Virus record (IMG/VR): IMGVR_UViG_3300010397_000015
Span: 1-52,654 of that record
Source of the DNA: a virus
DNA length: 52,654 nucleotides
Reading direction: 5' to 3' (one strand)
Part shown: piece after piece, positions 10,651 to 52,654 of the stretch
Numbering within the stretch: position 1 is the first letter of the stretch
Layout: every line of letters starts with the position of its first letter
Program-made: the position numbers and the translations under genes
Notes under the pieces: model-generated
Told to the model about the DNA's origin: nothing
What the model saw: only the letters and a program-made list of their open reading frames with translations
The model's database searches: none

Positions 10651-11070
10651 TCACTCCTTCTCCGGCGCAGTAGGGCCGGCTAAATGCTTCGATCTCGACT
10701 TCCACGCAGCCTGGTACGCCGCGCTGCACGCCCTGTGCGTGTGTATCGACGGCCTTGTGGCGCTGTGCCACATTGACTCCCGAGGACCATTCTGCTTGCA
10801 GAGTCCACACTTGGTCCAGTCGGCGTGTCCAGATGCCCTGAGGGCGTCCCCCCTCATGTGGAGCAGTCTGTGAAATGCGCGGTCCTCGCAGATCACCAGA
10901 TTCGACGGCCGGTTGTCCGACCTGTCTCCGTTGACGTGGTGGACCTCAACACCCTTTGGGATAGGACGCTGAAGCGCTCGGCTCGCAAGGAGTACGTGTT
11001 CGGCGATTCTTCCAGCGCAGTTTGCGTTTGGATGGCCCTTCGCTAGAACGCTCACGTATTCTCCGCTCAT
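10651..11070 (-). CDS. HNH endonuclease inserted after portal, 139 aa
   Basis: ATG 11070 overlaps the portal TGA as TGATG (a GTG one codon earlier is the alternative). It has the compact HNH core of phage homing enzymes: H-V-L-L-A-S-R-A-L, P-K-G-V-E-V-H-H-V-N-G-D, then N-R-P-S-N-L-V-I. A C-x-x-C (C-G-L-C) and a later Cys may hold a second zinc. It lies co-directionally between portal and the 241-aa gene, so it is transcribed late. Confidence 0.88.
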   Translation of the reverse strand: MSGEYVSVLAKGHPNANCAGRIAEHVLLASRALQRPIPKGVEVHHVNGDRSDNRPSNLVICEDRAFHRLLHMRGDALRASGHADWTKCGLCKQNGPRESMWHSATRPSIHTHRACSAAYQAAWKSRSKHLAGPTAPEKE

Positions 11071-13109
11071 CACGATGCGGGCTGGCTCGCCCTACCCTTT
11101 TGGCCCGGAGACCCTTGCGTCATGGCGGCCATCTGTAGCTGTTGAAGCTGCTCTTGCATCAGAGCCTTCTTGTGCAGCGCCCCGTGCGCGACGATGATCG
11201 CCTTGGTCATGGGATCCAAGTCCCTGAATTGCTGACTGTAAGCGAAGTCGCGCACCACCGCGTACTCCTGCGCATGATCCTCCCAATCCATGATCGGATA
11301 CCCGCCCTGCGCGTACTTCGCCGGATCGGCCATCATCTGCCGGATCTCGTTCTCCTGATTCTTCCGCGCCTTGAGCTTCGAGTTGATGAGGATCCCGTCG
11401 TCGTTGAAGTGCAGCGACGCCAGCACCAGTTCGCGGTCCTCCGGGTTCTCCACCGGGTTGACCGCGCCGATCTGGATCGCGTCCATCATCTCCTGCCGCT
11501 TGCCCGCGCTCGTCTCCATCTGTCCCGGCTCGCCGACGATGATGAGGTCGTTCGTGAGGTCCGCGCCGTGGAAGTCAATCCACTCGAAGGCTCCGTCGCG
11601 TCCGAGGAACCGAGCCGTGCGCTTCTCCGTGTAGAAGAGCTGGCCGAGTGCGAGCGCCGCGCGTCCGACATCCCGCGTCGAGCGAACCGCCTCGCGTGAA
11701 GTGACGGTCAGGGCCAGGTCGCGCATCTGCGTCATCTCCTGGATCGCGGCACCCGAGCGCATCTGTCCGGGCAGCTTCGTGCCGTCGACATCCGACTGGC
11801 TCGCGACGGCCAGGAGATCCTGCTGGCAGATCATCCCGATGTTCGTGACTTCGGGCGGGAGAACCGGAGCCGCTCCGTACACCGGAGGCCGCGACATCGG
11901 GCTGATCTCGTAGACCCCGCCCGGCGCGATCGTCATGTTCTTCACGTCGAGGCCGCTGTTCGAGTCGATGTAGGTCGGCGGTCGACCGAACACGCGCAGG
12001 AACTCGAGCACGCACGAGCGCGACTCGTTCAGGTTGTTCTGGGGACTCGTCAGATCCTCCACGAGCGAGGATCCCCAGAAGCGGCCCGGATGCGGCGTCC
12101 AATCCTGCTTCACGACGGGCAGGTGCGACGCCGCGCTCAGATCGCCGACGTGGGGGTTGTTCCCGTCGACCACGACGCGCCCGCCGCAGGACACGACGCG
12201 CCGGCCCTTGGGGTACTCGCTCGACGGTCGCTGCCAGAGCTCGACGTGCAAAGCCCGTTCGTTTCGCTTGTCCTCGGGCGTGTACCACGAGAAGGGCGAT
12301 CCGCCGTTGGACTGGCCGAAGAACGCGATGGCCTCCTCGTAGTTCTGCAGACCGATGCCCGCCTCGCTCGTCTGGATGTCCTCGATGTCGAGGTTGTAGC
12401 GGTCGGCCAGCACCGAGCGGTCCATGTAGTGCTTGAATCCGATCCACTGGCATCCGTCGATCGACTTGTCTCGGCTCGTCCAGTCGTGGTAGACGGCGAA
12501 CGGGTTCTCGACGGTGATCCGCACGTCGCCCGCGGAGATGTCTTGGAAGAGCCCCTCGCGGTCCTTCTCGCGCATGTCCGCGTCGGACAGAATGATCTCG
12601 GGCACGACGTTCTTCGTCTGCTTCGAGTCGAGGTAGAACCGATCCGGTTGGCCGGCGAGCGGATCGAACGCGATTCGGTAGAACCCGCTCCCGCAGATCG
12701 CCGACCATTCCGTGCAGAGCAGGTGCAGTCGGTAGTCCCAGTCGTTGAGCTGCCGAATGTGATCGAACACCTTCTCGCTGGTCTCCGCGATGTTACGGTG
12801 GCGCATCGAGGGCGTCTTCGGGACGGCCTTGAAGCGCGCGTTCACGTTGCAAACCTTCGCAACCGCGCGAATCACGGCGCTGCGAGTGAGGTTGACCTGG
12901 TAGATGACCTTGTGCTCGGGGATGTCGCCGCTCGCGTCCCACACTCGCCCGTCCGCGATGTAGAAGCACTGTTGGCCCGAGAAGTAGGCCATGTTCTTGA
13001 TCCAGCCTTCTTCCATCCGCATCCGCTCCATGCGGATCCCGTTGGGGTCGATCCGCTTCTGGAGCATCTCCAGCGTCGCGGACTCGCGGGTGGAGGGCGG
13101 CTTGCGCAT
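11070..13109 (-). CDS. Portal protein (P22-like), 679 aa
   Basis: A dodecameric DNA-gate protein at one capsid vertex. The length and helical C-terminal ~100 residues ending in a Gln-rich stretch match P22-type portals (barrel region). Inner motifs such as W-S-A-I-C-G-S-G-F-Y-R, P-F-A-V-Y-H-D-W-T-S and L-T-S-P-Q-N-N-L-N-E-S-R are typical of this family. It follows the terminase and two small genes, overlapping the preceding stop (TGATG). Start at ATG 13109. Confidence 0.9.
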   Translation of the reverse strand: MRKPPSTRESATLEMLQKRIDPNGIRMERMRMEEGWIKNMAYFSGQQCFYIADGRVWDASGDIPEHKVIYQVNLTRSAVIRAVAKVCNVNARFKAVPKTPSMRHRNIAETSEKVFDHIRQLNDWDYRLHLLCTEWSAICGSGFYRIAFDPLAGQPDRFYLDSKQTKNVVPEIILSDADMREKDREGLFQDISAGDVRITVENPFAVYHDWTSRDKSIDGCQWIGFKHYMDRSVLADRYNLDIEDIQTSEAGIGLQNYEEAIAFFGQSNGGSPFSWYTPEDKRNERALHVELWQRPSSEYPKGRRVVSCGGRVVVDGNNPHVGDLSAASHLPVVKQDWTPHPGRFWGSSLVEDLTSPQNNLNESRSCVLEFLRVFGRPPTYIDSNSGLDVKNMTIAPGGVYEISPMSRPPVYGAAPVLPPEVTNIGMICQQDLLAVASQSDVDGTKLPGQMRSGAAIQEMTQMRDLALTVTSREAVRSTRDVGRAALALGQLFYTEKRTARFLGRDGAFEWIDFHGADLTNDLIIVGEPGQMETSAGKRQEMMDAIQIGAVNPVENPEDRELVLASLHFNDDGILINSKLKARKNQENEIRQMMADPAKYAQGGYPIMDWEDHAQEYAVVRDFAYSQQFRDLDPMTKAIIVAHGALHKKALMQEQLQQLQMAAMTQGSPGQKGRASQPAS

Positions 13110-14425: not shown

Positions 14426-15646
14426 CTACTGCGCCGACGCTCCGTCAAGCGAGGATGCCGCGGGCTCCTCAAGGGCGCCCGACCAGACCGGCTCGGATGC
14501 CCTTCTCGCGTACCTCTCCAGAATGTCCGGGGAGAACACGCGATTCCCGGTCGACATGAAGGCAACGCTCGGGCGCGACGGGTACTCCTGATTGAAAAGA
14601 TTCACGTCGTTGTGGATCTCTGGGTCGGCAATTTTCGCGCGACGCCAGGCCAGTTGATCGTATCCGACGTTGCGCCACCCGACTCCGCGCTCGAAGTACC
14701 GCTGTGTCAGGAGCCATCTCTCCTCGTCATCGAGCGTCGCCTCGATCTCAGCAATCATCGCGGCGCTTGGTTGCTGCCCGCCGCCGTAGGTTTTGGAATA
14801 GAAATACTCCTCGTGTTGTTGCCACGCGAAGAACTCCGACGCCCACTGAAACGTCCTCGACCGAAGCGGAACGTCCTTCTCGGCCCATCCCGCCCACCAG
14901 TTGTCGCGGAACAGGCCAACGTCTCCGTTCGCGGTCGACTCGTCGAAGCCGTAGGTCCACGGCTCGCTCGGTAGCGAAGCGAGGATCGACGGGTACTTGA
15001 GTTCGGCCTCGACGAAGTGCGCGGACTCCGACAGGTGAACGAACCCGCGAGTGCCGCCCATCCCGGGTCGATCGACTTCGGACGAGGTGATCTCGATCAG
15101 TCCGTCGATCGGAGCCGCCCACGCAAGCTGGTATTTGGCCTTGGACGACATCTTGAAGTCGAAAAAGTCGTCCTCGGCCGTGGTCTTCGGCATCTTCCGC
15201 CGCGCCGTGTTCGCGATGCGGAGGAGAAGTTCGGAGCGGTCCTTCGTGTCCGCGCAGATCAGACCGCGCTTGTTCTTGCCGCGGAGGATCGTCTCGAACA
15301 TCACCGCCTGGATGTAGGTCGAGAAGCCCAATTGCCTCGCCTTAAGTATGCCGATGCGAACCGGAATCCCCGCTCGTTCCGCACGCAGGATCATCGCCTC
15401 CAGTCTCCGCTGCGCGCGATTCAGCACGAGCGGTCGAAGGTTGCCCTTCTTGTCGACGATCGTGAAGTACGTCTCGATCCAGCGTCGACGCGAGAGCTTC
15501 CGGCCCGACTCGTCGCTGTAGAGACCCGTCTCGCGGTTGAACAGGCCCGAGAAGTAGTAATTCTGCGCGAGCTGCTTGTCCTCGCCCGCCTTCGTGTTCG
15601 CGTCGAGCGAGACTCGGCCGACTTCCTCTGCGGTCGGCTCAGACAC
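14426..15646 (-). CDS. terL: Terminase large subunit, ATPase domain (separate ORF)
   Basis: 406 aa, the DNA-packaging motor. Walker A variant at residues 101-110 (L-K-A-R-Q-L-G-F-S-T), Walker B with catalytic acid near 202-208 (F-V-H-L-S-E-S), adenine-binding Q in R-A-Q-R near 78. The chain ends at TAG 14426 in the linker where a normal TerL would run into its nuclease; that domain starts 14 bases on in another frame. The start overlaps the TerS candidate by 8 nt. Confidence 0.9.
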   Translation of the reverse strand: MSEPTAEEVGRVSLDANTKAGEDKQLAQNYYFSGLFNRETGLYSDESGRKLSRRRWIETYFTIVDKKGNLRPLVLNRAQRRLEAMILRAERAGIPVRIGILKARQLGFSTYIQAVMFETILRGKNKRGLICADTKDRSELLLRIANTARRKMPKTTAEDDFFDFKMSSKAKYQLAWAAPIDGLIEITSSEVDRPGMGGTRGFVHLSESAHFVEAELKYPSILASLPSEPWTYGFDESTANGDVGLFRDNWWAGWAEKDVPLRSRTFQWASEFFAWQQHEEYFYSKTYGGGQQPSAAMIAEIEATLDDEERWLLTQRYFERGVGWRNVGYDQLAWRRAKIADPEIHNDVNLFNQEYPSRPSVAFMSTGNRVFSPDILERYARRASEPVWSGALEEPAASSLDGASAQ

Positions 15647-18102: not shown

Positions 18103-18138
18103 CTACTTGACTCCGGGTAGTGCGGTTGGGTCAAGTAG
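18103..18138. promoter_or_regulatory. Perfect 9-bp inverted repeat CTACTTGAC / GTCAAGTAG
   Basis: Arms at 18103-18111 and 18130-18138 with an 18-base spacer, in the noncoding divergent region. Each arm contains TTGAC, which could act as a -35 element on either strand. The arms are too far apart for a tight hairpin, so a dimer-binding operator is more likely. Confidence 0.5.
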
Positions 18139-18200
18139 GGACGGCCTCGGGGGGGACGATCCCCCGGGCGCCACCCGGTACGCAGGAGACTTCACCTCCC

Positions 18201-18605
18201 ATGCCCGAGTCAGACACGACCGTAGGAGAATCAGCCCGGCTTCGCAAGCTCGGGCTGAGAATCAAGGGCCGCAGCTACTCCGACCGGAACCGGATGCTCC
18301 TGGAGATGGGGTTCGCGTCCTACGCGGCCTATCTGCGCAGCCAGCTCTGGGCGAGCATCCGCCGCAGGGTCTACGAGATCAAAGGCGGGTGGTGCTACCT
18401 GTGCGGCCGTCAAGCAACGGAACTGCACCACAACCGCTACCACCTTGCCGACCTGGAAGGACGACGCCTCAGGTACATCAGCCCTATCTGCCGAGGCTGC
18501 CACCACGGCATCGAGTTCGACGGACACAGGAAACTCGGAGTTCGCGAGGCGTCCAAGAGATTCAGAATGCGGCGTTCCGCCGGCCGTTCCGCCAAGCCCC
18601 CGTAG
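18201..18605 (+). CDS. HNH endonuclease, first early gene, 134 aa
   Basis: ATG 18201 has an AGGAG about 12 bases upstream; a GTG at 18120 would extend the frame by 27 residues through the inverted repeat and is less likely. Core motifs: C-Y-L-C-G, T-E-L-H-H-N-R-Y-H, then C-R-G-C-H-H-G-I-E-F, the zinc-stabilised HNH of phage endonucleases. The N-terminal basic helices may bind DNA. Codes for an early DNA-cutting enzyme or homing gene. Confidence 0.82.
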   Translation: MPESDTTVGESARLRKLGLRIKGRSYSDRNRMLLEMGFASYAAYLRSQLWASIRRRVYEIKGGWCYLCGRQATELHHNRYHLADLEGRRLRYISPICRGCHHGIEFDGHRKLGVREASKRFRMRRSAGRSAKPP

Positions 18606-19292: not shown

Positions 19293-19831
19293 AGCACCGC
19301 GAACTCCACTGGATCGTATGCGACCCTTCCTCCGCCGGTCTCGACCCAACCGACCACCGCGTAGCCTGCGGTCGCTACTGGGTCTCGAGCGCCATGCGAA
19401 CCCACGACTGGACCGCCGTGACCTGTCGCAAGTGTCTCGTCCTGGGTGCCGAGTTCTTCACCGGCAAGAAGCGCCGCTGGAAACACCTCAGCGCGGTCGC
19501 GGCAACAGCGGTCGTGCTGCCACACTCGCACCGGGAACAACCAGCCCCGGTAGTCCATTTCCCGGAGCGGGTCGTGGTGCCATTCGCTCGGCGTGTCGTT
19601 TCGAACGAGCCCGCTCGCGCCGGTCCTCCGCGGCCATCCGCTCCTCCATCAGCACAAGTTTCGCCAACGTCCGAGTCGCGTCGGCGCGAACCTTTCCATT
19701 TCCGTGCTGCAATAGCGACGCAGAAGAAGCCTGCACCAACGCCTTCATCTCGTCCGCCGTCGCGTGCTGCCCACAACGGATCCGAGCTCGCACGCGCTCG
19801 ATCAGAGCCAGAACGATCTCATCGGGCTTGA
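19289..19831 (+). CDS. Zinc-motif protein with antisense-overlapping tail, up to 180 aa
   Basis: ATG 19289 overlaps the previous TGA (ATGA). The first ~75 residues look real: W-I-V-C-D, A-C-G-R-Y-W, T-C-R-K-C-L, a likely zinc site, then a basic patch. From about residue 68 on, the frame runs antisense to the 170-aa gene at 19488-20000 and the sequence becomes Pro/Arg-rich, as expected for a read-through tail. The true product may depend on that tail or be processed. Confidence 0.5.
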   Translation: MKHRELHWIVCDPSSAGLDPTDHRVACGRYWVSSAMRTHDWTAVTCRKCLVLGAEFFTGKKRRWKHLSAVAATAVVLPHSHREQPAPVVHFPERVVVPFARRVVSNEPARAGPPRPSAPPSAQVSPTSESRRREPFHFRAAIATQKKPAPTPSSRPPSRAAHNGSELARARSEPERSHRA

Positions 19832-20000
19832 ACGGCATCCGAGCCGGCAACCCAGCCGCGACCGCAACGTCCGAGAACTTCTTGTTCTCGAACTGCACCG
19901 GGTTCGTCACGTCCGCCACGGTCTTGTGGCGACGGTCGTTCACCCACACGAGGCGTCGATCGCTCGTGCCGGGGTAGCGGCGCTCGTAGTGGCCGGGCAT
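19488..20000 (-). CDS. Last gene of the minus-strand early cassette, 170 aa
   Basis: ATG 20000 overlaps the preceding TGA (TGATG). Mixed N-terminus with N-P-V-Q-F-E-N-K-K-F-S-D-V-A and long charged helices after residue 50; a basic K/R segment near 130-145 and a Pro-rich tail. No family recognised. It converges on, and overlaps by 344 bp, the plus-strand gene ending at 19831. Confidence 0.6.
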   Translation of the reverse strand: MPGHYERRYPGTSDRRLVWVNDRRHKTVADVTNPVQFENKKFSDVAVAAGLPARMPFKPDEIVLALIERVRARIRCGQHATADEMKALVQASSASLLQHGNGKVRADATRTLAKLVLMEERMAAEDRRERARSKRHAERMAPRPAPGNGLPGLVVPGASVAARPLLPRPR

Positions 20001-20179
20001 CAGAACGAGTCCAGATAGTCCCGGAACGCCAACTCCTGCGCAGTCCACGCCGGCTTCATCACTCCGCACCGATGGCAGGCCACGCGCAGATCCGTCACGC
20101 CGTCACTCCGGAGAGGCCGAACCCACGAGGTCGCGTGGCCGCGGACGAGGCAAATCAAGCGAGCGAAGAGGCGCTTCAC
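20000..20179 (-). CDS. Small Cys-x-x-Cys protein of the minus cassette, 59 aa
   Basis: GTG 20179 overlaps the upstream TGA; the stop overlaps the next ATG. Contains L-I-C-L-V-R-G-H and later A-C-H-R-C-G-V-M, four possible zinc ligands. Basic N-terminus, acidic C-terminal helix (E-L-A-F-R-D-Y-L-D). Function unknown; the overlap at both ends and the Cys motif support it. Confidence 0.65.
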   Translation of the reverse strand: MKRLFARLICLVRGHATSWVRPLRSDGVTDLRVACHRCGVMKPAWTAQELAFRDYLDSF

Positions 20180-20418
20180 TTCCCTTCCGGCCTCTTATCG
20201 AGACCTCGCTCCTTAAGCATCGACTCGATGTCATCAACGTGCAGGCAATCGCACAGGCACGCCGTGGTGTTCGGGATCATCGCGACGCCGCCGTTGCAGT
20301 AGTCGTTGCCCGGGACCGCGCTGTGCAGCACTCCGAAGCCCGTGACCTTGCTGTCGCTGATCCCGAGCTGGATGACCTTGTCGCCGTTCTTCGCCTCTCG
20401 CACATTTCGGTAGTGCAT
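20176..20418 (-). CDS. Small protein of the minus cassette, 80 aa
   Basis: ATG 20418 with AAGGA upstream on the minus strand. The start M-H-Y-R-N-V-R-E-A-K-N-G-D-K-V recalls a widespread family of short phage proteins that begin with Y/F-R-N-x-R-x-A-K-x-G-D. A Cys-rich stretch (A-C-L-C-D-C-L-H-V) precedes an acidic C-terminal helix. The family has no known function. Confidence 0.65.
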   Translation of the reverse strand: MHYRNVREAKNGDKVIQLGISDSKVTGFGVLHSAVPGNDYCNGGVAMIPNTTACLCDCLHVDDIESMLKERGLDKRPEGK

Positions 20419-20420
20419 GG

Positions 20421-20639
20421 CTATTTTCCTTCGTATTGGATCCTGGCTCGTAGTTCGGACTGGTACCCGCTCGTCCATCGACGATCGGGCCACAGGCATG
20501 GCGGGTAGTCCTGCCGTGGCCTGACGATGCTCTCGCTCCGCTGGGAGAGCCTCAGCAGTTCTTCGTTCGGACGAGAGAGATCAACTCCGTCGACGCGTAG
20601 TCTCGGGCGGAGATCAACGCCATCAACTTCGAGTGTCAC
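20421..20639 (-). CDS. Small protein of the minus cassette, 72 aa
   Basis: GTG 20639 with GAGGTG 8 bases upstream. The N-terminus contains a short direct repeat, V-D-G-V-D-L-R-P then V-D-G-V-D-L-S-R-P; the rest is Arg/Pro/Ser-rich. Sits between the Acb2-like gene and the 80-aa gene. Function not recognised. Confidence 0.6.
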   Translation of the reverse strand: MTLEVDGVDLRPRLRVDGVDLSRPNEELLRLSQRSESIVRPRQDYPPCLWPDRRWTSGYQSELRARIQYEGK

Positions 20640-20650
20640 GGCACGACACC

Positions 20651-20908
20651 TCAGAAGAACGTCGGCTTCGCGATCGACCGCGTGAGAGCCATCAAGCCCT
20701 CCTGCAGGTGCGTCGCTCCGATCGACACCCAACGCTGATCCGGGAACGGACCTGGGGCGTCTTTCATCTCAGGGGGCGGCTTCGAGTCACGGAGTTTCGC
20801 CACGAGCTCGCCGAGAGCGACGCCCTGCGCCTTGATCTCGTTCATCAGGTCGATCTCGCTCTGGTCCAGCTCGCGGTACCCAGCGATCTTGCGGTGCTGA
20901 TTCTCCAT
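20651..20908 (-). CDS. Acb2-like cyclic-nucleotide sponge (anti-CBASS), 85 aa
   Basis: ATG 20908 overlaps the preceding TGA (TGATG). Two helices: residues 5-35 begin H-R-K-I-A-G-Y-R-E-L-D-Q-S-E-I-D-L-M-N-E-I-K, residues ~58-85 read Q-R-W-V-S-I-G-A-T-H-L-Q-E-G-L-M-A-L-T-R and end in K-P-T-F-F. This is the helical-hairpin signature of Acb2 (T4 Vs.4, Acb2/Tad1 hairpin) proteins, which form hexamers that bind the cyclic di- and trinucleotide signals made by CBASS and related systems. The match is from memory. It is encoded on the minus strand within an otherwise plus-strand early region. Confidence 0.75.
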   Translation of the reverse strand: MENQHRKIAGYRELDQSEIDLMNEIKAQGVALGELVAKLRDSKPPPEMKDAPGPFPDQRWVSIGATHLQEGLMALTRSIAKPTFF

Positions 20909-21078
20909 CACCCGCCCCTGGATCCACTCGCCTGCGACCGCGGACCACCCTTCGGACCGCTCTTCATGCCCGCGCCCCCCTTGACCCGACCCGCACCGGC
21001 ATTCCCAGCCACCGTCCCCTTCGCAGGACCCTTCTGAGCATCGCCTGAACTGCCACTCTGCTGCGGACTCCCAGCCAT
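20908..21078 (-). CDS. Gly/Lys-rich peptide, first gene of the minus cassette, 56 aa
   Basis: ATG 21078 has a near-perfect GGAGGTG 5-6 bases upstream on the minus strand. The product is disordered and basic (G-A-G-R-V-K-G-G-A-G, K-S-G-P-K-G-G-P-R-S). Its TGA overlaps the Acb2-like ATG, so the two are translationally coupled. A nucleic-acid-binding or simple leader role is possible. Confidence 0.65.
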   Translation of the reverse strand: MAGSPQQSGSSGDAQKGPAKGTVAGNAGAGRVKGGAGMKSGPKGGPRSQASGSRGG

Positions 21079-21152
21079 CGCACACCTCCGAACCAGCCCG
21101 GACCATCCCGGACAGAGGTGAAGCTACACCCGGCACTCTGTAGGATCCAGCC
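21079..21152. promoter_or_regulatory. Divergent promoter region for the minus cassette and the plus-strand HNH gene
   Basis: Seventy-four noncoding bases between two divergent genes. It holds an inverted repeat CTACA (21125-21129) / TGTAG (21140-21144) and, on the plus strand, a TAGGAT hexamer 6 bases before ATG 21153, which would make that gene nearly leaderless. Confidence 0.4.
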
Positions 21153-21512
21153 ATGCCCGCAAGGAAGAGATCGCCCGAGGAGAAGCGTAAGGAGCGACTG
21201 CGGTGGAAGAGGACTGGAGGCCGGCGAGCGGCACAGGTCTACCGCGCCCTGAAAAACCAGCCGTGCCGGGACTGCGGAGTCCAATACCCGCCACACGTCA
21301 TGCAGTTCGACCACCTACCGGAACATCGAAAACGGCGAGACGTGAGCGACCTCAGCACTACTGGGCAGATCCTCCGCGAAGCCGCCAAGTGCGAGGTCGT
21401 CTGTGCCAACTGTCACGCCGAACGCACCTTTCAGCGCCTCGTGCGCGCGCGTACAGGTACCAGCGCCGGAGAAACTCGCCGTCCTGAGCAGGGTCTGTTC
21501 GACCTGACCTGA
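21153..21512 (+). CDS. HNH endonuclease, 119 aa
   Basis: ATG 21153. Lys/Arg-rich N-terminus, then C-R-D-C-G-V-Q-Y-P-P, V-M-Q-F-D-H-L-P-E-H-R, and a C-terminal C-E-V-V-C-A-N-C-H-A-E-R-T finger, a compact HNH found in phages and actinobacteria. Plus-strand gene divergent from the Acb2 cassette. Could be a homing enzyme or nick host DNA. Confidence 0.85.
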   Translation: MPARKRSPEEKRKERLRWKRTGGRRAAQVYRALKNQPCRDCGVQYPPHVMQFDHLPEHRKRRDVSDLSTTGQILREAAKCEVVCANCHAERTFQRLVRARTGTSAGETRRPEQGLFDLT

Positions 21513-23390: not shown

Positions 23391-23693
23391 ATGCCCAAGA
23401 AGAAGACCGCCCCCCACTCCAAGTTCGTCCTCGTCCGCACGTTCTCGGCTGGCGTCCATGTCGGCACGCTCGCAAAGCGCGACGGCAAAGAAGTCACGTT
23501 AACCGACGCTCGCCGAATCTGGCGCTGGTGTGGAGCAAACACGCTGCACGAGATATCGCAGAAAGGCGCTTCGGAAGACTGGACGCGGATTTCCGAGCCC
23601 GTCCCGACTATCGAGCTGACCGAGGCTATCGAGCTGATCCCCTGCTCCGCCGAGGCGCGCAAGAACCTGGAGCGTTCGCGATGGGGAGCGTAG
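23391..23693 (+). CDS. DUF6948-like protein, 100 aa
   Basis: ATG 23391. The arrangement V-R-T-(F)-S-A-G-V-H-V-G-T-L, then R-R-I-W-R-W-C-G-A-N-T-L-H-E, then I-E-L-T-E-A-I-E-L-I-P-C matches the DUF6948 family of small phage proteins as I remember it. Function is not established. The last codons overlap the start of a Gly/Tyr mini-frame. Confidence 0.65.
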   Translation: MPKKKTAPHSKFVLVRTFSAGVHVGTLAKRDGKEVTLTDARRIWRWCGANTLHEISQKGASEDWTRISEPVPTIELTEAIELIPCSAEARKNLERSRWGA

Positions 23694-24744: not shown

Positions 24745-24814
24745 CGCTATCGAGCTCGCCGTGGCCGTCGCCCTGATCGTCGCCGTCTACTTCCTCCTGA
24801 CTGGAGCCCCATGA
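24731..24814 (+). CDS. Single-pass membrane micropeptide, 27 aa
   Basis: GTG 24731 with GAGGAGG six bases before it; stop overlaps the exonuclease ATG as ATGA. The product is one membrane helix (E-L-A-V-A-V-A-L-I-V-A-V-Y-F-L-L) after a T-R-R-D start. The RBS and double overlap make it a real gene despite the size. Confidence 0.6.
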   Translation: MTRRDAIELAVAVALIVAVYFLLTGAP

Positions 24815-25683
24815 GCACCTTCGAGCCCGGCATCTACCACGACATGACCTTCGAGACCTACCTCGGCCTGGAGGCGTGGGGTTCGTCGTCGCTCCGAGCG
24901 ATGCGGAAAGGTCCACCGGCCCGCGTGATATGGGAAAAGGGCGCTCCGAACGTGGACACCTCCGCGCGGCTGCTCGGATCCGCGGTTCACTGTGCGCTGC
25001 TGACTCCGCACCTGTTCGCAGACACCTACGTCGGCAAGCCCGAGGGGATGCGGTTCTCGACGAAGGAAGGCAAGGCGTGGCGAGACGCACACTCAACTCG
25101 GAAGATCCTGTCGTTCGAGGACTTCGCGCGGGTCGGGAGCATCGTCGAGGCCCTGCACGCCAAGGAGTCGGTCGCGAAGTCGCTGGACGGCGCCGCGTGC
25201 GAGCACTCGATCATCTGGCGCTGCCCTGGATCGGGCGAGCTGTGCAAGGGTCGCCCCGACTGGATATCGGAGAGCGACCACGCCATCTACGATCTCAAGG
25301 TGACGCGACACGGAGGAACGCGGTTCATGGCGATTCGAGCCTACTCCGAGGGATGGATGCACCAGCTCGCGCACTACCGCACCGGCGCGATGCTGAGCGG
25401 AGCCGACGTGAAGCGCGGGCGCCTGGTCGTCGTCGAACCGGATCCGCCGCACTTCGTCTGGACGCTCGAGGTCAAGCGGGACGCGCTGGATCTCCTGGAA
25501 CTCGAGAACGGCGAGACGCTCAAGCTGATGCGGGACTGCCGGGTCGCCCACGCCTGGCCTGGAACGCCTGAGAACGAATGGACGAAGATCGAGCCGCCCG
25601 CGGGAACGCTGGACGGACTGGAGAGCGTGCAATTCATGGAGACCGCGGCAGAGCAACAAGGCGACGAACAGGGGGCATTCTGA
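24811..25683 (+). CDS. RecE-like PD-(D/E)XK exonuclease, 290 aa
   Basis: ATG 24811. Carries G-S-A-V-H (residues 56-60), the conserved start of the core helix, R-P-D (148-150) and D-L-K (161-163) as the PD...DxK catalytic triad, typical of the DUF3799/RecE 5'-3' exonucleases used for phage recombination and DNA degradation. The C-terminal half includes a Tyr/His-rich segment (H-Q-L-A-H-Y) also seen in the family. The neighbouring 162-aa protein often accompanies such nucleases. Confidence 0.85.
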   Translation: MSTFEPGIYHDMTFETYLGLEAWGSSSLRAMRKGPPARVIWEKGAPNVDTSARLLGSAVHCALLTPHLFADTYVGKPEGMRFSTKEGKAWRDAHSTRKILSFEDFARVGSIVEALHAKESVAKSLDGAACEHSIIWRCPGSGELCKGRPDWISESDHAIYDLKVTRHGGTRFMAIRAYSEGWMHQLAHYRTGAMLSGADVKRGRLVVVEPDPPHFVWTLEVKRDALDLLELENGETLKLMRDCRVAHAWPGTPENEWTKIEPPAGTLDGLESVQFMETAAEQQGDEQGAF

Positions 25684-26769: not shown

Positions 26770-27065
26770 CCCTCGACCCCACGACCCGCGCGCTGATCGA
26801 CGCGGCGCTGAATCTGAAAATCTACGCGCGACTCAATGGCAAGTACGAGGTCGAAGACCGTGATGATCTCAGGGAATTTTTCGGCGCACGCATGAACTAC
26901 GTCGCCGCCCACAACACGCCCGACGCCCTGGAAGCCTCCGCCGCCCGATGCGCGGCGCTGGAGAAGGCTCTGCGACGGATTGCGTTCGAGCCGCAAGGGC
27001 CGGCCGATGCGACGCACGCCGAGGTTCTTTCGCGCGTTGAGGCGATTGCCAAGGAGGCACTATGA
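26766..27065 (+). CDS. Small helical protein, 99 aa
   Basis: ATG 26766 (ATGA). Two regular helices near residues 5-25 and 55-98 with Ala/Glu/Arg; the middle contains Y-E-V-E-D-R-D-D-L-R-E-F-F-G. No known family. Confidence 0.6.
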   Translation: MTLDPTTRALIDAALNLKIYARLNGKYEVEDRDDLREFFGARMNYVAAHNTPDALEASAARCAALEKALRRIAFEPQGPADATHAEVLSRVEAIAKEAL

Positions 27066-33310: not shown

Positions 33311-33339
33311 TTGACGCGGGGCTATTATTGGCAGACAAT
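33311..33339 (+). promoter_or_regulatory. Promoter of the transposase gene
   Basis: TTGACG at 33311-33316, 17-base spacer, GACAAT at 33334-33339, the best sigma-70-type match in the window. It is just upstream of ATG 33347, so the transcript would have almost no leader. A 10-C tract precedes it. Confidence 0.6.
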
Positions 33340-33343
33340 AATA
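33323..33343. promoter_or_regulatory. Palindromic operator TATTATTG-N5-CAATAATA
   Basis: Perfect 8-bp arms with 5-base spacer overlapping the -10 of the transposase promoter, in an AT-rich island of a GC-rich genome. Located between the RHH regulator and the gene it could repress. Strong candidate binding site for the RHH dimer. Confidence 0.65.
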
Positions 33344-33346
33344 CCC

Positions 33347-34177
33347 ATGTACAAGCTCCAGCCCGCCCAGCAGGTCCAGGTGATCTCCGCGCTCTCCGAA
33401 GGATGCTCCGTCCGGGGCACCGAGCGCATGACCGGAGTCCACCGCGACACGATTCTCCGCCTCCTCGTCCGCGTCGGGGAGGCGTGCAACGTCCTGCTCG
33501 ATCGGACGATGCGGGACCTCCCCTGTCGCCACATCCAGCTCGACGAGATGTGGACGTACGTCGGGAAGAAGCAGCGGCACATGACGGCGCAGGATGATCC
33601 GAACCGGAACGGCGATTTCTGGATCTGGTCCGCGATCGACAACGACACGCGGCTCGTTCCGACCTTCCGCCTCGGAAAGAGAACTCATCGCGATGCCAAC
33701 CTATTCGTCCGCGACCTTGAGGATCGGCTTCGCAACCGCGTGCAACTTAGCACCGACGCCCTCCCCGCCTACGTCGATGCGATCGACCGCGTCTTCTGCC
33801 CCAACAAGGTTGACTACGGCCAGATCGTAAAGTCGTACGAGGCCGAGCCGATGGGTCCGGGTAGGTACTCGCCTCCGCGCGTTGCGAGCACGGAGCGAAG
33901 GCCGGTCTTCGGCGATGTGGAAGAACGCTCGATCTCGACGAGCTACGTCGAGCGGCTCCACCTTCACAACCGGATGCGTTGCCGCAGGCTGACGCGCCTC
34001 GTGGACAGCTTCTCGCGGAAGGTCGAGAACCTGGAAGCCGCGCTCCGTCTTCACTACGCGGTCTACAACTTCGTGAAGCCGCACAAGTCGCTCAAGGGCG
34101 CGACTCCCGCGATGGCCGCCGGCGTCGCGGACGGTCACTACGGGATCAGCGATCTTGTGGAGCTGACGGGCTGGTAG
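33347..34177 (+). CDS. IS1-type DDE transposase-like protein, 276 aa
   Basis: ATG 33347. N-terminal helix-turn-helix-like region, then Q-L-D-E-M-W-T-Y-V-G-K-K (D66), D137 in L-S-T-D-A-L-P-A-Y, and a helical segment with E near 240 in V-E-N-L-E-A-A-L, a plausible DDE triad of the IS1/IS1595 type. Terminal K-P-H-K-S-L-K-G-A-T-P-A is also typical. No inverted repeats flank it: the next gene's stop abuts it. It is not a complete IS. Confidence 0.75.
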   Translation: MYKLQPAQQVQVISALSEGCSVRGTERMTGVHRDTILRLLVRVGEACNVLLDRTMRDLPCRHIQLDEMWTYVGKKQRHMTAQDDPNRNGDFWIWSAIDNDTRLVPTFRLGKRTHRDANLFVRDLEDRLRNRVQLSTDALPAYVDAIDRVFCPNKVDYGQIVKSYEAEPMGPGRYSPPRVASTERRPVFGDVEERSISTSYVERLHLHNRMRCRRLTRLVDSFSRKVENLEAALRLHYAVYNFVKPHKSLKGATPAMAAGVADGHYGISDLVELTGW

Positions 34178-38782: not shown

Positions 38783-39424
38783 CTAGATTTTCACGAGTTC
38801 GATGAAGGCGTTCTTGAATGTGCTGGTGGTGGTCGTCGCGGCCGAGACGTAGGTGACTTCGAGCCAATTGGCGACGGTCGAGTCGAACGCGGACGCGGTA
38901 AGCTCCACGATCTGCCCGTCGACAGCCGAGATGCCCGTGACGCCCGTGTTCTGGAGGAACAGCCAGCCCGAGAGCGTTGCAGCGGCTCCGATGGTGCGGA
39001 CCGTCAGCACAAGTTCAGCGCGGAACGGGATATTGGTTCCCGACGCAGCGGCGACCGAGTTCGCTGCGGATCCGATCACACCGTCGGCGGTCGTCCCGGC
39101 AGTTCCGAGTCGAAACCTCCAGGTCGAAGCGTTGGCGACCGTCGAGGTGCAGGTGCCCTCGAGTGTGGCGCGGATGACCGAGCCGACCTTGAGCATGTTC
39201 GCGTAGATCCGGCAGTTGTTGAGACCGCCGACGATGATCGTCTCCGTCGTGTTGATCGCGCCCGAGTTGGCGACGATGGAGCAGAGGGCATTCGAGGCGA
39301 ACGTCCGGACCGAACCCGTGTCGTCAATGAAGCGGACGGTCTCTTCGGTCGAGTCCAGGTAGACGTGGGCCTTGTTTGCGGACGGCGTGCTGGGCGCGGC
39401 CTGCGTGTTGAGAATCAGCGGCAT
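38783..39424 (-). CDS. Tail fibre-associated beta protein, 213 aa
   Basis: ATG 39424 overlaps the collagen-like gene TGA (TGATG). N-terminal ~40 residues (A-N-K-A-H-V-Y-L-D-S-T-E-E-T-V-R-F-I-D-D) resemble the start of phage fibre heads or tips; the rest is a Thr/Ala-rich beta domain. Receptor-binding role inferred from context. Confidence 0.65.
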   Translation of the reverse strand: MPLILNTQAAPSTPSANKAHVYLDSTEETVRFIDDTGSVRTFASNALCSIVANSGAINTTETIIVGGLNNCRIYANMLKVGSVIRATLEGTCTSTVANASTWRFRLGTAGTTADGVIGSAANSVAAASGTNIPFRAELVLTVRTIGAAATLSGWLFLQNTGVTGISAVDGQIVELTASAFDSTVANWLEVTYVSAATTTTSTFKNAFIELVKI

Positions 39425-40941
39425 CAGCCAATCTCCACGAAGGAGGTCGCGGGAATGTCAACGTCGATACCTGAGCCAAGCTCCAGGAAGCTCGGGAAAT
39501 ACATGCCCACGCTGGCTTGCAGAGTGAAGCTCAGCCTCGGGACGAGACTCACCATGCCGGACACCTGCCAGTCAATCGGGCCACCCGCTCCACCGATCGC
39601 GCGACCGTACAGGACGTATTCCTGCATCGATGCGGCCGGAGCCGGAATGAGCCCGGTCTGGCCGGCGGCTCCGTTGGTGCATCCCAGTGCGCCCGGAACG
39701 TCGTCGGTGCCGTCGACGTGCGACGAACCGTGCGGCATGGGGAAGGCTTTCGCAATGAACGCCCACCGCTGCTTCTGGCCGTCGTACCGCAGGATTGCGC
39801 TGTCTCCCAGCCTTCCGCTGAGTGCGCCTTTCATCGTCGCGACGATTCCGGTGGATCCGTTTGGCAGATTGATTCGGTTGGCGGCGAGGGAAGCCGCGTC
39901 CTCGTGCGTGACCTGGAGGTCGCCGCATAGGCCCGTCCACCCGCCCATCTGGATGACCTTGATCGTGCCGTCGATGCAGCCGGTCGAGTCGATTCCGGTG
40001 AGGCTGAGTCCGCCGCCGGACGCTTCCAGCCGAATGACGGAGCATTTCGCGAGTCCCGTCGGGCTGTAGTCGTTCTGGCTGACTGTGATCGCTGCTGGCT
40101 GGATGACTCCGCGCCAGGCCCACGGACCCATCGCCCAGCGAGCGTCGTCGGGGATCGAGACTGGCCAGGAGTCGAACGACTCGCCATCCTCGCCCTGCAT
40201 CCCCTGGGACCCGGCCGGTCCGGTCGCGCCGTTCGACCCGGCTGATCCGGTTGACCCGCGCTCCCCGGGAGGCCCGATCGGACCCTCGGGACCCTCATCC
40301 CCGTCGGACCCGCGGTTGCCCTGCGGACCCGTCGCGCCCGTCTGCCCAGCAGATCCAGTCGGACCGATCGGCCCTGCAGCTCCGTCGAGCCCATCCGACC
40401 CGTCCTGCCCGTCCTGGCCCGTGTTCCCCTGCGGGCCGGTTGCCCCGGTCGCTCCGGTGGCCCCCGTAGCCCCAACAGGTCCGATCGGACCGGGCACTCC
40501 AGCCTCGCCATCTGCCCCAGGCTCGCCGGGATCACCTGGAGGTCCCATCGGGCCGGGAACCGTGCTGGCCGCTCCTGTGGCTCCGGTCGCGCCCGCAACG
40601 CCTCGATCCCCGGGAGGACCCTGAGCGCCGTCCTGGCCGTCAACACCGTCGACCCCGGGAGGACCCTGCGGCCCCGGCGTCCCCGCCACCCCCGAAATCA
40701 GGACGCTCGAGACCGCCGTGACCCTGCCCTTGGTGTCGTAGGTGATCTGCGCGACGTGGGTGGCGTCCCCGATCGGTCCGCCGCCGGGTCCGATGACGGC
40801 CAGGGTGGGAGCCGGGTAGGTTCCAGCCAGGTCGCCGCCGGCTGCGCTGTCCCCGATGTGGACCGCGTTCGGGTCGACCATGCCCCCGCCGCCGGTCATC
40901 TGCCGGGGTCGGTACGCCTTGCGCGGGAGCTTCGCTGCCAC
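39424..40941 (-). CDS. Collagen-like tail fibre, 505 aa
   Basis: GTG 40941. After a ~85-residue head, about 60 G-X-Y triplets (residues ~85-262; G-P-Q-G-P-P-G, G-A-T-G-A-T-G-A-T) form a collagen-like triple helix. Then a globular Trp/Gly-rich head of ~240 residues. Trimeric fibre that probably carries the receptor-binding tip, with the following small genes as partners. Confidence 0.85.
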   Translation of the reverse strand: MAAKLPRKAYRPRQMTGGGGMVDPNAVHIGDSAAGGDLAGTYPAPTLAVIGPGGGPIGDATHVAQITYDTKGRVTAVSSVLISGVAGTPGPQGPPGVDGVDGQDGAQGPPGDRGVAGATGATGAASTVPGPMGPPGDPGEPGADGEAGVPGPIGPVGATGATGATGATGPQGNTGQDGQDGSDGLDGAAGPIGPTGSAGQTGATGPQGNRGSDGDEGPEGPIGPPGERGSTGSAGSNGATGPAGSQGMQGEDGESFDSWPVSIPDDARWAMGPWAWRGVIQPAAITVSQNDYSPTGLAKCSVIRLEASGGGLSLTGIDSTGCIDGTIKVIQMGGWTGLCGDLQVTHEDAASLAANRINLPNGSTGIVATMKGALSGRLGDSAILRYDGQKQRWAFIAKAFPMPHGSSHVDGTDDVPGALGCTNGAAGQTGLIPAPAASMQEYVLYGRAIGGAGGPIDWQVSGMVSLVPRLSFTLQASVGMYFPSFLELGSGIDVDIPATSFVEIG

Positions 40942-50200: not shown

Positions 50201-52654
50201 TGGAGACGTGATCGCGATGCGCCTCCGGATGATCCCGGCGTTCATGTCCACGAAGCTGTTGACCCAGTTCCCTTCGAGCAGGTCGTTCTGGGGGAACCGC
50301 TTGCGGACGTAGATGTAGTGGACGCGACCCGGAGTGAAGACGGGCGATGTCGTCTCGACGTAGACCTCCTTCTTCAGAGCGGTGTCGTACCACCCGAACA
50401 CGAGCTTCCCGTCGCGGCACTCCACGAACGGTCCGCCCGAGTCCTTCGACTGTCCGCGCCGCCAGATGGAGATGCGTCCGGAGATCGACGCCGGCTTCCA
50501 GTAGCACTTGAACGCGAAGTAGCGCCCGCTCGTCCAGTCGAGAATGTCCGCGTCGGCATCCCCGATCCTCTGCCGGAAGTAGCTGTTCCCGTAGGACTGG
50601 TAGTGGCTGATCTGCGTCGCCGCACCCCGAGTCGCTCCGTCGATCGGATCGTTCGCGGGGTTCGCCGCGCTCGTCTTGTCCCGCTCGTTCGCGACCCAGA
50701 CCGGGAACCGCTGGAGCTCGAACGACGGCTTGATCGTGGGCGGAAGAACGCCAGCGAGTCGACCCTGGCCCTTGATGATGACCGCGGGACGAGAGCCGTT
50801 CGTCGCGTAGACCTGGGTCCCGAACTGCGCCCAGGAGACCACGTTCGTCTCGCGACCGAACTCGTGGAACAGGCTGATGAGCGGATGCGACCGGATCAGG
50901 CCGTACTGGTCCGTCTCGACATCGTGGACCTTGTGGCCGACACCCTCCGCGTTCGGACCAAGGATCCAGAAGTCTGGCTGCCTCGGAAGTGTGCTGGCAA
51001 GGTAGTCGAGCGCGAACGGATCGAAGTCGGCCGGGGCAACCCCGGTGTTCGATCCAGTCCAGATGTCGTCGCGCAGCACGACCAGCTCTCCCAGCCGTCC
51101 CTGGAGGCTGTGCAGGAAGCCCTGGATGCGCTGCGGCTTGATCTGGTCCACGCCCTCGGTGAAGGTCGGCTCGTCCTGCGGCGCGCTGTAGGAATCCCTG
51201 GAGGCTCCGACGAGGATCGTCCCGGGAGTGCCGGGCGAGACCAGCTTCGAGTCGCGGATCCAGTCGATGTCGGTCAGCCCCGACACTCCCGAGTCCTGCG
51301 CGTTCAGCGTGACCTCGGAGGCGTGGCCGTTGATCTTGAGGTGCGGCTTGAGCCAGACCGTTCCCTCCGCGCGCGTTGGCAGGTACCAGCGGATGTGCGC
51401 CCAGTCCCCCGGACCGATCGCGGACGACCCCGACGTGATGTACAGGCCCTTCTCGGTCAGGGGCGTCGCCGTGGATCCGACCACGAGCTCGGGAGTCCCG
51501 TACCGCAGGCGACCGATCAGGTGGACGCGGTGCGAGCCAGCATCGAGCGCGGGGTCGGTCTCGAGATCCCCGATCCAGAACAAGGTCTGGTATTCGGCGG
51601 TCGCGTCCAGCTTCACCCAGGCGTCGATCACCGTGACCCACGCATCCGTCGCCGACGAGTTCAGCGTGAACACCGTCGCGTCGTCGAACACCACCCGGTC
51701 GTCGTGGAGCGGAGCCGCGATGCCCGTGTCCTGAATTGTTGTGGCACGGAATCTCAGACTCTTCTCGATCGAGTCCGTCGGGCCTTCGTCGACCCAGCGA
51801 TCGTCAGCTTGGAACAGAGCGCCCTGAGCCGCCGCGTAGATGTCGCCCGAGCGGCCCGTGATTCCGAGGATCGGATTCCGCCGAGGTCGGACGAGGCCCC
51901 GGCACCAGGAAGGAAGGAGGTCCTGGATCGTGCCTCGTCCGAGCGGCGAGTAGATCCGCAGCCCGCCGGTCGCGGTGATCGGAGCCACGTTCGCCCACAG
52001 GTCGTCCACGATCAGCGCGTCGTCGATCGTCGAGGTCGACGGCACATAGGCGTTGCCCGCGCCCAGCGACAGTTCCTTCTCGGAGAGGTCGTCGGCGAAC
52101 GCGGTGTAGTACAGCAGCCGGATGATGTCGCACCGCGCAGCCGATCGCGTCGCATCTCGGAACGGTTCCGCGAGCGTCAGCGAGGATCCGTCCGCCGCCA
52201 CGGAGTCGACGAGGTAGAACTCCTCCTGTTCCTTCCCGATCGTCTCGGGGTCCTCGATCTTCGTCATGTCGCCGCGAGCCATGAAGATCGTCTCGGTGAC
52301 GGCTTCCTTCGTGTCCTCCGGCGCCGAGGTGAAGAACTTGCCACCGCCCGAGGGAGTGACCACAGCCGAGCCTTCCACGACATTGGCTTGGCGCAGTCCT
52401 CTCCCGAGCGGGAGCAAGATGTCGTCGGCCGTCAGGAGTCGCGCCGGCAGACATTTTAGACCCAAGAGCTTCCCGTCGCGTTCAACGATCCCCCCGTTGA
52501 CGCTCGGCAGGGCTCCAGGGCCGATCGTGCTGAAGACGCGCACTTCGTCGAGCAGCATCCGGCAGTTCAGTTCCGCGTAGCCGAGGCCCGCAGCGGCTCG
52601 CGGCGAACGAGGCGACCATCGTCCGCCGATGCAGATGACCGACCGCGCGAGATC
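47249..52654 (-). CDS. Giant tail/virion protein (2,599 aa), C-terminal part with nozzle-like region
   Basis: Continuation of the gene starting at 2517; the frame is open to the window edge, and an internal ATG at 52558 is residue 831, not the true start. Two stretches resemble LamG/concanavalin-like sandwiches (about residues 1100-1250 and 1510-1590). Two short repeats sharing G-T-F-T-x-G-E and T-G-G-T-S-A-A-T lie near 1620-1690. A charged Lys/Arg/Glu helix lies near 2080-2110. The last ~440 residues contain a pattern seen in podovirus tail-nozzle (T7 gp12-like) proteins, which would place it at the tail tip; this match is from memory. It is followed at once by the ejection-type genes. Confidence 0.75.
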   Translation of the reverse strand, partial: DLARSVICIGGRWSPRSPRAAAGLGYAELNCRMLLDEVRVFSTIGPGALPSVNGGIVERDGKLLGLKCLPARLLTADDILLPLGRGLRQANVVEGSAVVTPSGGGKFFTSAPEDTKEAVTETIFMARGDMTKIEDPETIGKEQEEFYLVDSVAADGSSLTLAEPFRDATRSAARCDIIRLLYYTAFADDLSEKELSLGAGNAYVPSTSTIDDALIVDDLWANVAPITATGGLRIYSPLGRGTIQDLLPSWCRGLVRPRRNPILGITGRSGDIYAAAQGALFQADDRWVDEGPTDSIEKSLRFRATTIQDTGIAAPLHDDRVVFDDATVFTLNSSATDAWVTVIDAWVKLDATAEYQTLFWIGDLETDPALDAGSHRVHLIGRLRYGTPELVVGSTATPLTEKGLYITSGSSAIGPGDWAHIRWYLPTRAEGTVWLKPHLKINGHASEVTLNAQDSGVSGLTDIDWIRDSKLVSPGTPGTILVGASRDSYSAPQDEPTFTEGVDQIKPQRIQGFLHSLQGRLGELVVLRDDIWTGSNTGVAPADFDPFALDYLASTLPRQPDFWILGPNAEGVGHKVHDVETDQYGLIRSHPLISLFHEFGRETNVVSWAQFGTQVYATNGSRPAVIIKGQGRLAGVLPPTIKPSFELQRFPVWVANERDKTSAANPANDPIDGATRGAATQISHYQSYGNSYFRQRIGDADADILDWTSGRYFAFKCYWKPASISGRISIWRRGQSKDSGGPFVECRDGKLVFGWYDTALKKEVYVETTSPVFTPGRVHYIYVRKRFPQNDLLEGNWVNSFVDMNAGIIRRRIAITSPFSGTFTVGETITGGTSAATGAVLRFAQATAGENGFIEYEDTAGTFTAGELVTGGTSAATATTLTPVGIINPMHDVAIVKRLRTTAPTAGNVMELDEAVSGRSMVGFTTEVSQIRPLGTDATGLGGMIAGTYSTNATAGRVVSSKDAFSVDHVGMYFQFGAGAFAGKLYRITGRVNTTTIDTVIAGTATAEVFGVASGLIGGIFMGIGLTKSDDFDLARSPDTNGDVEFLGTGLQESSVNGFAPHEGEMWTPGWTTVTGTNGEGAFVFEDVDSSAAGNLLDPAQVGVDILDHPLYDGLNGEPGELRYNGRPAVNEPATPLATFWAADARTFNDEGGNASSQPNGTATRPPFIDKDPTAHPYTRASKAAHPTLKWIQDPSVWSSTRFVSCAFYDPVQDAVSNGGPILTIAAAAEDPKNPSGAVRILLTGLPQKKGHELWVFESLGGSFEIGDDGEFDPEEPVLDEKALAKRRKNHPKAAAREDEERAKATRAAIRAQTRLRISSFGSSAALLRVARFDASANEYAIRATEETIGEGPPLGFDNFPPPACKVLASSGTRLWFGALTKLKQLDGVMYSRAGFPVSIRITPTVGFFRLASGRGDEITGMVQLDELMVIAKDLAVASATIGSDDLARVETVSGGVGAISPGAMVALDDRANFLGDRGAHIVSRSGVTNLGRPVFVSTALENYFANVMDRRKARLFAATINRSRDQYLLLTREVDETRQKHRISMESYVQRAGAELQGNQAGSFRFSRYETPNLSAIGQVQSGPGGSERLVGGTDDGFVVWLDRSDTQGMLIGDTPEVWGDLSLVAGTGSTTTALVVTTGSIDATLEGPRGATVRYLDASSVERTAVVLGAASGILLLDEVADAAVPLDGVVLLGVMEHRFETPWLDLGNPERQKIATYIDFVFRKETTGSLTFEILTDMDDTTVVDGGTIDLSVTHRNYPLRSVLGTWMKCRLYVPFGVTGTEFDLSAIVWRIRDVEQT
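52532..52654. repeat. 123-bp direct terminal repeat, right copy
   Basis: Exact duplicate of positions 1-123. It codes for part of the giant tail protein in the same frame as the left copy and should be counted once. Confidence 0.95.

Follow-up and report, generated by a model that had tools for sequence, protein, structure and literature searches.

An Acb2-type anti-CBASS protein homologue encoded by an uncultured phage and its minus-strand gene neighbourhood

Acb2 belongs to a phage protein family whose members have already been solved and assayed, and whose hexameric assembly, binding sites for cyclic di- and trinucleotides and blocking of CBASS effectors provide the basis for reading any new member (PMC12043709; PMC10097602). 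In Vs.4, the Acb2 of bacteriophage T4, Y8 and F82 stack against cGAMP, and polar contacts to this ligand come from Y8, H11, K23 and R79 (PMC10097602); the substitution T68M lowers binding (PMC12657230). Carriage of Acb2 can come at a cost since the Panoptes system is triggered to defence by phage Acb proteins (PMC12657230).

The window analyzed here is the whole 52,654-base stretch of virus record IMGVR_UViG_3300010397_000015, which originates from an uncultured phage. An exact direct repeat of 123 bases is present at its two ends (1-123 and 52532-52654), which suggests that the record is a complete genome. On the minus strand, at 20651-20908, an open reading frame (ORF) encodes a protein of 85 residues (MENQHRKIAGYRELDQSEIDLMNEIKAQGVALGELVAKLRDSKPPPEMKDAPGPFPDQRWVSIGATHLQEGLMALTRSIAKPTFF). 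We are confident in assigning this gene as acb2 and its product most likely constitutes a hexameric sponge for cyclic nucleotides, holding CBASS signals away from their effectors. The family thereby gains a well-supported, ordinary member carried by an uncultured phage, and no view of CBASS or of its inhibitors is altered.

Identification of acb2 and predicted fold of its product

The original prediction had been made from the letters of the window and many of its elements were recovered. The coordinates and strand of the 85-residue ORF are correct, the two Acb2 motifs quoted from its translation are both present, and the announced overlap at its start corresponds to TGATG at 20906-20910, shared with the stop of the upstream ORF. 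The ribosome-binding context that had also been invoked is less convincing: a stretch precedes the ATG (AGGGGCGGGTG) but does not form a strong ribosome-binding site. With a codon score derived from long genes of this phage, the acb2 frame reaches 0.44 and the other five reading frames do not exceed 0.00. Nearly all homologues share an M-[ED]-N-Q-H start, which supports the ATG of acb2. A longer frame at 20651-21154 is consequently not the gene; its extension, moreover, crosses the upstream ORF in a different frame.

The product belongs to the Acb2/Tad1 hairpin family, as it matches Pfam PF24729 (Acb2_Tad1_hairpin) with an E-value of 7.2e-19 and 68.2 bits, above the curated cut-off of 27 bits. 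It also matches phrog_717 (E 2.1e-21) and, over its whole length, the Acb2 crystal chain 8h2j by phmmer (E 5.4e-14); the profile of the family finds 8h2j at 1.3e-29 and T4 Vs.4 (7uq2) at 1.3e-4. When a profile was built from 37 homologues with the query left out, the acb2 product scored 134.8 bits, and 1000 shuffled versions of it reached at most 14.6 bits. The resemblance to Acb2 is therefore not due to chance, and the best matches listed for this profile include none from another frame of the window. The profile comparison thus bears out the identity proposed by the original prediction. Relatives were found in 219 phage records and in at least 359 IMG/VR stretches, the best 80 of which were kept. 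The publication describing Acb4 regards Acb2 as relatively rare and confined to specific phage groups (PMC11722364); the lower-bound count in IMG/VR points to a common occurrence among environmental phages.

The structure of the acb2 product was predicted with AlphaFold as a monomer without ligand, using 38 homologues (pLDDT 88, pTM 0.72). The model consists of a short N-terminal helix (4-7) and two long helices (16-41 and 58-80), with no strand. Searched against the PDB, it retrieves Acb2/Vs.4 chains in all nine top positions, in agreement with the helical hairpin anticipated from the sequence; these are Acb2 8h2x and 8h2j (E 5e-5 to 2e-4, with moderate TM-scores of 0.67-0.69) and T4 Vs.4 7uq2 (E 0.013-0.023). 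The Acb2 of Pseudomonas phages (p26; PDB 8h2j, 8h2x, 8ixz) displays the same full-length architecture and 40% identity in the alignment, sharing the MxNQHxKIxGYR start and the RW-IG and P-F ends; the segment joining the two long helices is shorter by eight residues in the window protein. T4 Vs.4 (7uq2) also shares the helical hairpin, with an identity of 22-25% in the structural alignment. Among phage isolates, the homologues of Marinobacter phage PS6 (ATN93253.1) and Acinetobacter phage Ac42 are 54-60% identical to the window protein over all 85 residues.

Putative nucleotide pocket and alternative readings of the product

Residue correspondences with Vs.4 were made by hand from printed alignments, taking into account that the numbering of chain 7uq2 is that of the publication (PMC10097602) plus one. 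In the profile alignment to 7uq2, Y8, F82, H11, K23 and R79 of Vs.4 correspond to Y11, A80, L14, K26 and R77 of the window protein. The residues of the cyclic dinucleotide pocket, Y8, K23 and R79, thus all have an equivalent: the stacking residue Y11 (codon at 20876-20878, minus strand) and the contact residues K26 (20831-20833, minus) and R77 (20678-20680, minus), each of which is invariant in 38 of 38 sequences. T66 corresponds to T68 of Vs.4, and L32 to the hexamer residue L29; other interface positions of Vs.4 differ in the window protein (A66 to G64, A73 to G71, A77 to L75 and F33 to V36). By analogy with the solved relatives, the product would most likely assemble into a hexamer of helical hairpins in which cyclic dinucleotides would be bound between pairs of protomers and cyclic trinucleotides probably at the trimer interface. 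Signals of CBASS captured in this manner would be kept from their effectors during phage replication, and other systems using the same signals would most likely be blocked as well.

Two other readings of the protein were weighed. It could be a diverged Acb2 that has lost nucleotide binding, as might be supposed from the replacement of two T4 contact residues, H11 and F82, by L14 and A80. This is very improbable: the frame is intact with a strong codon signal, the pocket residues are invariant, and the Pseudomonas phage protein 8h2j, a functional Acb2 solved with 3',3'-cGAMP, carries residues identical to those of the window protein at the two positions where T4 deviates. Positions H11 and F82 are therefore not defining for the family. 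The chance that the product is instead a sponge of the Tad1 type (Thoeris anti-defence 1), a Thoeris inhibitor binding gcADPR, appears slimmer still. Such a reading draws on PF24729, a hairpin family that encompasses Acb2 as well as Tad1, so that the window protein and Tad1 have this Pfam domain in common, and on the 289-position phrog_717 profile being matched at positions 199-285 only. In Tad1, however, the helices are preceded by an N-terminal four-stranded sheet (PMC12043709), whereas the 85-residue window protein is predicted as a short helix followed by two long ones. No trace of this antiparallel beta-sheet domain was seen in the predicted model and, the start codon being fixed by the homologues, the window protein is classed as an Acb2 and the Tad1 identity was rejected. 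All significant PDB matches are likewise Acb2, and the NQH-K-I-GYR start is common to the window protein and to the solved Acb2 8h2j.

The minus-strand run around acb2

The original prediction had further described acb2 as part of a six-gene cassette forming a counter-defence island. Six minus-strand frames are indeed packed end to end (21078-20908, 20908-20651, 20639-20421, 20418-20176, 20179-20000 and 20000-19488), their stops and starts being adjacent or overlapping. Coding support is however very uneven, since four of the five neighbours of acb2 have weak or negative codon scores; firm coding evidence exists in the run for acb2 and for the 80-residue gene at 20176-20418 only. The upstream ORF (20908-21078, minus) encodes 56 residues of low complexity, rich in Gly, Ser and Lys; its ATG is preceded by GGAGGTG, its codon score is weak (0.08) and it matches no family. 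Between acb2 and the next gene, a possible 72-residue ORF with a GTG start (20421-20639, minus) scores -0.16 and has no relative in the viral_contigs collection according to a pattern-based scan, which can miss distant ones; it may not be a gene. Further downstream, a Cys/His-containing ORF of 59 residues (20000-20179, minus) initiates at a GTG overlapping the preceding stop, with a weak codon score (0.08) and family matches that are all below threshold. The last ORF of the run (19488-20000, minus; 170 residues) also overlaps the preceding stop with its start (TGATG), scores 0.06-0.10 and matches no family; for the 193-residue frame at 19488-20069, the same type of scan, with the same blindness to distant relatives, returned none.

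The run had been presented as a minus-strand cassette within an early plus-strand region. It does border plus-strand genes but lies on the strand of the structural block, so that this description is only partly apt, 'early' having been an inference. The structural block comprises a portal-like gene (11070-13109, minus) and a terminase-like gene (14426-15646, minus), and has a near-identical counterpart in a single 9.5-kb record (L082). Matches of both genes among phage records are distant, too remote for naming a host, and the portal query found none in genome_contigs; the window phage is without close relative in the phage collection. Genes resembling HNH endonucleases according to PHROGs flank the minus-strand run on either side (18120-18605 and 21153-21512, both plus), the latter among the plus-strand genes at its border.

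It is unlikely that the six ORFs constitute a counter-defence operon whose other members inhibit further defences. The frames do share one strand with overlapping stops and starts, and adjoin a gene whose family has proven anti-defence activity; tight packing is nevertheless usual in phage genomes, and the codon scores argue against most of the neighbours. None of the neighbour proteins recurs in the flanks (up to 6 kb) of 80 other acb2 loci, beyond which a more distant link is possible, and none reaches a curated cut-off or indicates defence in Pfam, PHROGs, NCBIfam and PADLOC. In the two isolate phages inspected, acb2 is found beside the portal gene or between the terminase and portal genes, as expected of a single inserted gene: in Marinobacter phage PS6, it directly follows the terminase gene and precedes the portal gene by one gene. 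The gene neighbours of the PS6 and Ac42 homologues are unlike those of the window. The island is thus not supported, adjacency being the sole argument that any neighbour inhibits a defence.

An 80-residue protein family and other features of the window

The gene located two frames downstream of acb2 (20176-20418, minus; 80 residues, codon score 0.41), whose product reads MHYRNGREAKNGDK...AVPGNDYCNG...DCLHVDD, belongs to a widespread family, with 26 of the 80 positions invariant among 36 aligned sequences. Relatives (labelled L084-L163 and L164-L192) occur in at least 99 viral stretches of IMG/VR (viral_contigs) and at 29 loci of bacterial genome_contigs; the latter span Proteobacteria, Acidobacteria, Planctomycetota and Verrucomicrobia among others, many being metagenome bins with unsure host labels. 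The product found no match at E 1e-5 in the phage-isolate collection and no significant one in Pfam, PHROGs, NCBIfam and PADLOC. Its predicted model (pLDDT 81) is composed mostly of strands with one helix. A fold search with this model returned nothing at E 0.001 in the PDB or among viral models; SH3-like and PWWP/Tudor barrels figure among the weak matches, which are not relied upon. An Acb2 match was present in none of the 22 records checked that hold a relative, using a family search that recovers the acb2 of the window itself, and 20176-20418 therefore looks like an independent accessory gene. A role of this conserved and unannotated phage family in host takeover or anti-defence is a rather doubtful proposition. 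Being strongly conserved in phages and in bacterial contigs of several phyla, and unannotated in the family libraries searched, the family may merit more attention than the Acb2 of the window.

Several other features of the window were recorded. A scan for promoters returned no promoter-like site. On the plus strand, a DUF6948 gene lies at 23391-23693 (E 1.9e-27), and the gene at 24811-25683 carries a PDDEXK-like domain (DUF3799, E 6.7e-15), possibly corresponding to the exonuclease of a recombination module. An ORF resembling IS1/DDE transposases (33311-34177, plus) is present in this phage genome, its match to DDE_Tnp_IS1 (E 1.3e-4) falling slightly short of the Pfam cut-off. ARAGORN identified a tRNA-Ile gene with anticodon gat at 26915-27005 (plus). 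Finally, the translation of 39424-40941 (minus) contains a long stretch of collagen-like Gly-x-y repeats, and its product is probably a fibre or an appendage.
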